Shown here piece after piece: positions 30,211 through 47,203 of a DNA stretch of 64,000 bases (position 1 is the first letter of the stretch; each line of letters begins with the position of its first letter). The position numbers were made by a program, and so were the translations under genes. The notes beneath the pieces are model-generated. The model worked only from the letters and a program-made list of their open reading frames with translations, did not search any database and was not told the DNA's origin. Source of the DNA: Methanosphaera stadtmanae (lineage in GTDB: Archaea; Methanobacteriota; Methanobacteria; Methanobacteriales; Methanobacteriaceae); NCBI GenBank assembly GCA_015062805.1, contig SUTQ01000007.1:1-64000 (forward strand). Direction: 5' to 3'.

Positions 30211-30284
30211 GGGCTCGTAGCTCAGTCTGGGAGAGCGCCTGGCTTTTAACCAGGCGGTCGCGGGTTCAACTCCCGTCGGGCCCG
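30211..30284 (+). tRNA. tRNA-Lys (TTT), copy 1
   Basis: GGGCTCG pairs with CGGGCCC (one G-T pair). The loop CTTTTAA between CCTGG and CCAGG gives anticodon TTT. It is identical over its whole length to the copy at 30352-30425. Confidence 0.96.
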
Positions 30285-30351
30285 CTTATTACTATTTATG
30301 TTAAAATTTATTTAGAAGAATTTAATTTATATAAAATTATATTTTGCATTG

Positions 30352-30425
30352 GGGCTCGTAGCTCAGTCTGGGAGAGCGCCTGGCTTTTAACCAGGCGGTC
30401 GCGGGTTCAACTCCCGTCGGGCCCG
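30352..30425 (+). tRNA. tRNA-Lys (TTT), copy 2
   Basis: An exact duplicate of the preceding tRNA-Lys, 141 bases downstream. The identical part is limited to the tRNA and about four bases before it; the downstream flanks differ. Confidence 0.96.
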
Positions 30426-45225: not shown

Positions 45226-45309
45226 GCCGAGATAGCAAAGCCAGGTAATGCGCCGGACTTGAGATCCGGTGGGCAGTCGCCCGCATGGGTTCGAATCCCA
45301 TTCTCGGCG
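45226..45309 (+). tRNA. tRNA-Ser (TGA)
   Basis: GCCGAGA pairs with TCTCGGC. The loop CTTGAGA between CCGGA and TCCGG gives anticodon TGA. A long variable arm (GGGCAGTCGCCC) identifies a class II tRNA, here serine. 84 bases. Confidence 0.95.
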
Positions 45310-45509
45310 CTATTTTAATTATATTATTTTATTATTTTTAATAGATTTTTTTTCATGTTAGTAACTTCTATCTTTTTTTACAACATTTTGTTTATTTTTT
45401 TTCAAATTTTTATTAATTCTTCCATATTTTATTATTATAGTTATTTTTTTTATCAATTTAATTAATTTAGTATAAAAATTTTTTATTATTTTTAAACATT
45501 ATACATATA

Positions 45510-45518
45510 TTTATATAA
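45510..45518 (+). promoter_or_regulatory. TATA box of the candidate RNA gene
   Basis: TTTATATAA lies about 26 bases before 45541, where the structured sequence begins. That is the expected archaeal spacing from the box centre to the start of transcription. Confidence 0.5.
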
Positions 45519-45540
45519 TATATTGAACAAAGTATAATTT

Positions 45541-45924
45541 GAACAAGATTATTTTGTTCAAACCTATAGAGAATGGGGGTTTGCTTTGTAACTATTGTTA
45601 CATGGAAGCATGTTATATGCATCTCAAGAGTTGATACCTGTGATGATGATATCACCTCGAACCCTTCGAGATCTTAACCCATAGTGGATGGGGGTTTGCT
45701 TTGTAACTATTGTTACATGGAAGCATTTTTATGCATCACAAGGACTTGAGATTAGTACTAAGGGGTGTAAGCTCCTAGAAAACCTGCGGGACGTGGGGGT
45801 TAGCATTTATTTTGAATTATCAATATTTAATTCGTTATATATTGAAAAGGATTATACTTGAAGTACTTTAGTACAGTCCATTAAATGATTGGTAGAATCT
45901 ATTTTGATAGATTTTACCTTTTTT
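45541..45924 (+). ncRNA. Candidate free-standing structured RNA with tandem modules (family unknown)
   Basis: A motif of 24 bases recurs at 45561, 45676 and 45781. Its shared parts are an AACC(C/T) start and a (A/G)TGGGGGTT(T/A)GC end, able to pair as AACCY with GGGTT. Copies one and two continue identically for 39 bases (45573-45611 and 45688-45726). That stretch folds as TGCTT-GTAAC-TATT-GTTAC-...-AAGCA. Next comes GCAT-loop-ATGC, whose loop is GTTAT in copy one and TTTT in copy two, and then a small hairpin (TCAA-GAG-TTGA or CAAG-GA-CTTG). Extra hairpins are CTCGAA/TTCGAG and GTAC/GTAC. A TATA box at 45510 and a strong terminator at 45891 bracket it. I cannot match it to SRP RNA (no helix-8 core), RNase P RNA, or box C/D or H/ACA guides. 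Confidence 0.6.
45891..45924 (+). terminator. Strong terminator of the candidate RNA gene
   Basis: GGTAGAATCTAT (45891-45902) pairs over 12 bp (one G-T) with ATAGATTTTACC (45907-45918) across the loop TTTG, followed by six T. The T-run is on the + strand, so it does not serve the minus-strand aRF1 gene. Confidence 0.8.
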
Positions 45925-45967: not shown

Positions 45968-47203
45968 TTATTTAACTTTGTATCTTAATAAGGCGGCAAT
46001 TCCACCGAATGCTTTGTCTAATTGAGTTCCTTCTTCCGTTTCTATTGAAATTACTTCAACATCAGTGTTTACTTCTTCTGCTAATTCAATTAGTTCTTCT
46101 GCTGTTTCTTGTGTTTTAATGATTTTCATTAATTCTCCACATTTAGGGCATTGTTTTTCGGGAGCTTTTTGATGTTGTTTTGTAGTAATTACATCTAGTG
46201 TTCCACATGCTGGACATTCGTATGTTTGTCTGTTTGTTTTCAGATTTTCGGATATGAGTAACGTTTCAACAGCGCCCATTTGGAGGTTTGTTCTTACTTC
46301 GTTTTCTCCGTATGAGGATAATCCACTGTCTGAAATAAGGCCTGATAGGAATTTTCTCATGAATTTCTTTTCTTTCATGATGTCCATTTCTTCTAATGTG
46401 TCTGATGATTCATCAAGCACTTCTCTTATTCCGAAGTCACCAGTGTATGATGTGTCTACTATATTGATTACTTTGTCTTTAATTTCATAGTGAAGGTAAT
46501 CTCCTTCTACAAAATCGTTCTTTGTGTGTCCCGGTCCACCAATCAATACTCCTTTTAGTTCATCTTTTAATGGTAGGAATGCTTCGTCCACATATCTTCC
46601 GATACGTTTTAGGAATTCGTGTGCTGCTAATTCAATTACACGATCGAACCTTCTTTGTGATTGTCCCCCTGCTTTATGTTTTCCAGGCACTCCGCTGGTT
46701 AGTGTTTTAACTATGTCAATTCTTTTTCCTCTTACTGTTGCGATAGTTGCTTCTTTTCTGTCGAGTACTACTGCTCCGTATACTTCCTTGTATTCTATAA
46801 TCTGTTTTAATGGTTCTATGAAGAATTGGCTGTCACAGTGGTATATGTAAGTCTGTACAGTTTCAGGCGGTTCAAATATGTATGTTTCCATTTTTTCGGT
46901 TCCCGGACCTCCTTTTGGAATCATACCTACAAACATTACTAATCCTTTTGGTGGTGCTTGAGGATATAGTTTTGTTCTTTGAATGATTACTTCTATTGCA
47001 GATTGCACGTTTTTTCTTGTGGTTTTACTTTTGATGTTTGAACTTTGTCCTATTTCATCCACCATTTGTTTTCTTACATCACTTATTTGTTTGTCTGGTG
47101 GTATGTATACACTAACTAGTTCTGTTCCTCTTCCTTTTTTATTTTCTAGTTCTTTTAGTGTTTTTTTAACTTCATACATTTCCTTTGATGATATTTCACT
47201 CAT
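45968..47203 (-). CDS. prf1: Peptide chain release factor aRF1
   Basis: This 411-residue protein reads all three stop codons and releases the peptide. Domain 1 has NIKS at 56-59 for stop recognition, and domain 2 has GGQ at 179-181 in [13 protein letters not shown] for peptidyl-tRNA hydrolysis. Domain 3 has a small zinc-type insertion with CPAC ... CPKC, seen in many archaeal aRF1 proteins. It is divergent from pyrH across a 311-base gap. Confidence 0.96.

Follow-up and report, generated by a model that had tools for sequence, protein, structure and literature searches.

The closest described relative of the element reported here is a guide RNA known as the omegaRNA or right-end element RNA (reRNA). 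It serves the nuclease TnpB, which derives from transposons and is ancestral to Cas12. In the omegaRNA of ISDra2, base pairing joins the stem-1 loop to the bases ahead of the guide (PMC10097598), and TnpB trims the 5' side of its omegaRNA (PMC10278001). About 12 base pairs (bp) are needed by ISDra2 TnpB, with the distal pairs being barely read. Some 50 independent events have been inferred in which TnpB joined clustered regularly interspaced short palindromic repeats (CRISPR) arrays or adaptation modules (PMC12669027), and the CRISPR array has been proposed to descend from an omegaRNA that became condensed and duplicated (PMC10097598). Here we examine a 64,000-nucleotide (nt) stretch of the Methanosphaera stadtmanae genome (contig SUTQ01000007.1, positions 1 to 64,000; hereafter the window, whose numbering is used throughout), in which an earlier note had marked a free-standing, modular non-coding RNA gene of unknown family between a tRNA-Ser gene and aRF1. 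Judging from sequence comparison, this unit probably consists of three omegaRNA modules in tandem, has its own promoter, and is used in trans by a TnpB encoded elsewhere in the genome. The genome of the window is designated G000, and relatives are designated G005, G006, G007, G008, G009, G015, and G016.

With the ISDra2 omegaRNA (PMC8612924, PMC10097598), the unit shares a pseudoknot between the stem-1 loop and the pre-guide bases, a guide-side hairpin, the bases ..YCA(A) before the guide, and relatives located directly 3' of tnpB; the predicted pseudoknot has the same topology as that of ISDra2, and such a pseudoknot is common to the guide RNAs of TnpB and Cas12. Unlike the ISDra2 omegaRNA, the unit strings several scaffolds, most of them 56-78 nt long in the arrays studied here, into one putative transcription unit that lies far from tnpB and has a promoter and a terminator of its own, and its guides of 11-16 nt are followed by hairpins and the next scaffold, not by transposon-flanking DNA. 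It resembles a type V (Cas12) CRISPR array in the alternation of repeat-like scaffolds with different guides, in having an effector of the same protein superfamily, and, in G015, in spacers of 31-33 nt; the repeats, however, are whole omegaRNAs that keep their structure and differ in sequence, in place of near-identical direct repeats with unique spacers, and there is no sign of spacer acquisition. The neighbouring genes that were read (EF-1alpha, S10, tRNA-Ser, aRF1, and a UbiD-like gene, all named by reading) include no cas genes, no search having been aimed at cas families. As in the nuclease-dead TnpB repressors (TldR; PMC13418256), a TnpB relative has settled in the genome with conserved guides, but the RuvC catalytic residues (D, E, D) are present here and no promoter target was found. 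The tandem interspaced guide RNA (TIGR) arrays of Tas proteins (PMC12045711), which also lie outside CRISPR-Cas, are similar in layout only, both protein and RNA being different. Tandem whole omegaRNAs are likewise a different layout from the TnpB-CRISPR joinings of PMC12669027, and they look like the 'condensed and duplicated' precursor of PMC10097598. The unit thus appears to be a new layout of a known RNA, a trans-encoded array of TnpB guide RNAs; no natural tandem omegaRNA array was found in the open-access literature, and, most subscription papers and preprints being outside that scope, no priority is claimed.

Results

Architecture and covariation of the modules

The unit is an array of guides, not a single RNA with internal repeats, and its order is scaffold-guide, scaffold-guide, scaffold-terminator (Table 1). 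The modules follow one plan: stem 1 (CC...GG with a G-rich loop) and P2 are followed by GAA and a hairpin and then, in most cases after a single base, by four bases, A, N, and a stretch that varies. In 23 of 23 modules, drawn from eight arrays, the stem-1 loop pairs with the four bases that closely precede the guide in one fixed register; all 92 pseudoknot cells hold standard pairs, and compensatory changes occur at three of the four pairs. When all cells are considered, 97% are paired, versus at most 52% after the register is slid by 1-3 columns, and a perfect 4-bp Watson-Crick pseudoknot is formed in 19 modules, versus a mean of 3.7 and a maximum of 13 in 100,000 shuffles. The three window modules all keep the pseudoknot through different base pairs, and modules outside the window add GTAC/GTAC, GAGC/GCTC, GGGC/GCCC, and others. 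The hairpin after GAA is present in nearly all modules, its stem kept and its stem sequences differing; the GCAT/ATGC stem described earlier, with a loop of 5 nt in copy one and 4 nt in copy two, lies in this hairpin. Pairs were counted on spliced module ends, and no covariance model was built because whole-module alignment with MAFFT misplaced the guide-side hairpin.

We judged the covariation and the hairpin to be decisive for homology, and the modules are very probably TnpB guide RNAs. Strong covariation among the homologues supports the proposal of a free-standing, modular non-coding RNA gene; covariation, the absence of which would have counted against an RNA, is present, and no convincing reading frame crosses the unit. 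As to the 'unknown family', Rfam indeed holds no matching model (the suggested scan returned no family at the gathering score and nothing credible up to an E-value of 10), but the pseudoknot, the guide-side hairpin, and the relatives directly 3' of tnpB identify the modules as homologues of TnpB omegaRNAs. The coordinates and repeats given in the earlier note were found again in the sequence: the TATA box, the 24-base motif in three copies (at 45561, 45676, and 45781), the 39 identical bases of copies one and two, and the terminator hairpin with its T6. The repeat is no product of chance, a 37-mer being present twice in the window, versus none expected from 100 shuffles. The fold z-score of the unit is -3.8 and that of the reverse strand -3.9; because the reverse strand folds equally well, folding energy alone is no evidence for an RNA. 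The unit is also an island of G+C (about 35-44%, with flanks at about 8-23%).

Table 1 Features of the unit and its flanking landmarks, in window coordinates
Feature	Position	Strand	Remarks
TATA box	45510-45518	+	TTTATATAA; TTTATATA similarly spaced in the syntenic units of G009, G016, and G007
5' leader hairpin TGAACAA..TTGTTCA	45540-45560	+	Inverted repeat; also in G009, altered in G016, none seen in G007
Putative omegaRNA scaffold 1, 67 nt	45561-45627	+	Stem 1; P2 45587-45592/45597-45602; P3 45608-45611/45617-45620; pseudoknot 45569-45572 GAGA with 45622-45625 TCTC
Guide 1, GAGTTGATACCT	45628-45639	+	First 11 nt identical in G016
Two hairpins capping guide 1	45640-45670	+	Predicted fold, shuffle p = 0.017; hairpin there in G016 differs in sequence
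Putative omegaRNA scaffold 2, 66 nt	45676-45741	+	Pseudoknot 45684-45687 GTGG with 45736-45739 TCAC
Guide 2, GGACTTGAGATTAGTA	45742-45757	+	16 of 16 nt identical in G009
Hairpin capping guide 2	45758-45778	+	Shuffle p = 0.013; in G009 same stem, different sequence, p = 0.007
Putative omegaRNA scaffold 3, 101 nt, long P2	45781-45881	+	Pseudoknot 45789-45792 GGAC with 45876-45879 GTCC
Guide-less end: terminator hairpin (45891-45918) and T6	45882-45924	+	No conserved guide; terminator in 4 of 4 syntenic units, sequences differ
tRNA-Ser(UGA), upstream syntenic landmark, outside unit	45226-45310	+	
aRF1 gene, downstream landmark, outside unit	45968-47203	-	Named from the earlier note and by reading

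Guides and capping hairpins

The window unit has guide 1 (GAGTTGATACC) in common with the unit of G016 and guide 2 with that of G009, and a guide on the TnpB side (GATCTCGCGGG) is common to G000 and G009. The guides are conserved although the synonymous sites of tnpB differ by about 40% between G000 and G009 (synonymous divergence, dS, 0.6). Hairpins follow most guides in G000, G009, G016, and the free arrays of G007, the sequence changing and the hairpin being kept; the shuffle p-value is below 0.07 in six of eight, the two hairpins of G007 giving 0.10 and 0.12. None was found in the spacers of G015 or in the TnpB-side spacers of G007. A guide shortened by a hairpin fits the requirement of ISDra2 TnpB for about 12 bp.

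Synteny and distribution

By DNA similarity, only G009 matches most of the unit. By synteny with EF-1alpha, S10, and tRNA-Ser, the unit is in the same place in G009, G016, and G007, three other species in which both TATA box and terminator recur; it was not seen at the S10 locus of 13 other genomes of the genus in which that locus was found, a contig end cutting it short in one of them. A pattern search for the motif in 20 genomes of the genus gave 42 matches, versus 0 for a reversed control, and several were directly behind tnpB; at these cis loci, in G000, G009, G007, G015, and others, the motif is on the same strand as tnpB and 0-64 nt behind it. Among 139 genomes of the family, tandem motifs were found only in G000, G009, G007, and G015, the reversed-pattern control being almost empty. 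The window unit itself is not at the tnpB gene but between tRNA-Ser and aRF1, with the TnpB on another contig.

Several arrangements among the relatives are recorded here in their own right. In the syntenic unit of G016 (L010, first 400 bases), the second module has no recognisable stem 1 and the third has a broken pseudoknot loop, so that the unit may be decaying; degenerate later modules would also fit a loss of the nuclease. In G015 (L012, 1100-1524, minus strand), five copies of the motif, spaced by about 95 nt, directly follow tnpB, and the even, hairpin-free spacers of 32, 33, 31, and 32 nt between the five scaffolds make this the most CRISPR-like array. In G007 (L102, 3480-4510; G007:C147), two arrays of two modules each, differing in their guides, come one after the other behind TnpB, which looks like a whole-array duplication, and the same locus holds a further solo module as well as a single-copy module belonging to another type of TnpB. 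The genus g10 (L222, L231, L236, L239, L243, and others) has many omegaRNA-like modules that are solo and single-copy and lack a detectable tnpB upstream; some are present in several copies per genome, and they are probably non-autonomous IS605-type elements. One compact module of the array type, with a short P2, stands alone at L042 (1501, minus strand) and L105 (around 400; G006:C228), in a genome without an array-clade TnpB.

The TnpB nuclease

G000 encodes one close TnpB of the array clade (contig C15, 41280-42368), to which the orthologues of G009, G007, and G015 are 83%, 63%, and 51% identical; the four proteins form one clade (support 100/100), and the nearest TnpBs outside it, at 40% identity, are without an array. 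The G000 protein matches the NCBIfam model guided_TnpB at 208 bits (cut-off 100) and conserves the RuvC triad (D191, E278, D361) and the zinc-finger cysteines of ISDra2 TnpB. Its gene adjoins the UbiD-like gene and stays at one chromosomal locus across species, with a ratio of nonsynonymous to synonymous substitution (dN/dS) of 0.16 between G000 and G009; the array-clade TnpB no longer behaves like a mobile element and is held at one locus under purifying selection. Behind tnpB, G000 and G009 each have two modules, G007 has two pairs plus one single module, and G015 has five. No close orthologue was found in other genera and no array-clade TnpB in viral contigs; a scan of genome contigs matched G015 alone.

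Target searches and neighbouring genes

Neither guide 1 nor the TnpB-side guide matches the host genome elsewhere over 11 nt, guide 2 has no other match of 14 nt in it, and within the host genus the concatenated guides match only themselves above chance. Viral contigs and phages gave a few exact or weak guide matches, at about chance level, and plasmids gave no match to the unit. Matches of guide 1 in G005, G006, G008, and G015 were rejected as targets, being in or beside unrelated reading frames; those of G005 and G008 are in one gene, on the reverse strand. From its first position, guide 2 (45742-45752) is identical to 11 nt of the anticodon arm of tRNA-Ser(UGA) (45255-45265). Targeting of tRNA was rejected, as the other guides match no tRNA well and G007 and G016 carry the same tRNA with changed guides; the match is probably a coincidence, with a rough expectation over all guides, by our own estimate, of about 0.15. 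Elsewhere in the window, a tRNA cluster contains a near-identical pair of tRNA-Lys(UUU) genes (30211-30285 and 30352-30425).

Discussion

The RNA architecture, its covariation, the synteny, and the linked TnpB clade with an intact active site are directly supported, and from them we infer transcription, processing, use by TnpB in trans, and foreign targets as follows. The unit's own promoter would drive an array transcript, in which each module would fold into a compact scaffold of the TnpB type, with stem 1, P2, a guide-side hairpin, and a pseudoknot, and present a guide of 11-16 nt, which a hairpin closes off from the module that follows. Cleavage by TnpB at every scaffold would divide the transcript into single guides, and in a tandem array 5' trimming would at the same time define the 3' end of the preceding module. 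The complexes may then bind and cut DNA that matches the roughly 12-nt guide beside a short motif; as the host genome is not expected to carry a perfect target of a TnpB with an active nuclease, foreign DNA is likelier. That this TnpB uses the array we regard as likely. With respect to purpose, we lean somewhat towards defence, regulation being the less favoured of the two.

Other explanations differ mainly in what they make of the guides and of the nuclease. The one that we take most seriously, although we think it rather unlikely, is that TnpB with short guides (11-12 nt) binds without cutting and silences host promoters in the manner of TldR, for which the short, hairpin-capped guides conserved between species and the TldR precedent itself (PMC13418256) speak; the intact RuvC residues are unlike TldR, and the host genome lacks matches at the lengths given above, shorter or mismatched targets being possible. 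It is improbable that the unit is a disused fossil, a row of right ends from non-autonomous IS605-type elements that inserted in succession. Solo modules without tnpB are indeed common in the family, the modules of G016 are partly degenerate by reading, and the last module has no guide, but the window modules all retain their pseudoknots by different pairs, several species conserve the guides, the promoter, and the terminator at one locus, and tandem modules never occur elsewhere in the 139 genomes, their presence tracking an intact TnpB under selection.

Still less credence is due to a structural or riboregulatory RNA that has borrowed TnpB-type modules and no longer needs TnpB: in its favour are the unit's own promoter and terminator and the 11 nt shared by guide 2 and tRNA-Ser, but the pseudoknot needed for TnpB binding is conserved, the array is found together with the TnpB clade, and the other guides have no such tRNA match. 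An overlooked, divergent RNase P or signal recognition particle (SRP) RNA would suit a length of 300-400 nt and is favoured by no tool result; with no Rfam match at the gathering or a relaxed threshold, a three-fold modular build, and relatives behind tnpB, its probability is negligible.

Several observations weigh against a tandem array used by TnpB in trans. No target or transposon-adjacent motif (TAM) was found in the 20 genomes of the genus, viral contigs, or phages. Module boundaries were drawn manually in the light of the structure that was expected, and the 23 modules are not independent, as they represent only five species. Most scaffolds are shorter than the processed omegaRNAs that have been surveyed (79-466 nt; PMC10278001), the last module of the free arrays is without a conserved guide, and guides of 11-16 nt could allow binding without cutting. 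Finally, G016 (72% complete) has one clear module and no TnpB that was seen, its other modules looking degenerate.

The chances appear evenly balanced that the tandem array represents a natural link between TnpB and CRISPR-Cas12, in which a settled, nuclease-competent TnpB would process an array of condensed tandem omegaRNAs, held at two loci and carrying several guides, for defence or control without cas genes. The arrays look like the step proposed by Nakagawa et al., surviving in methanogens whose close relatives carry the ordinary omegaRNA in single copy, and the origin of the CRISPR array would thereby become directly testable. The scaffolds are, moreover, very short and may be multiplexed from one transcript.
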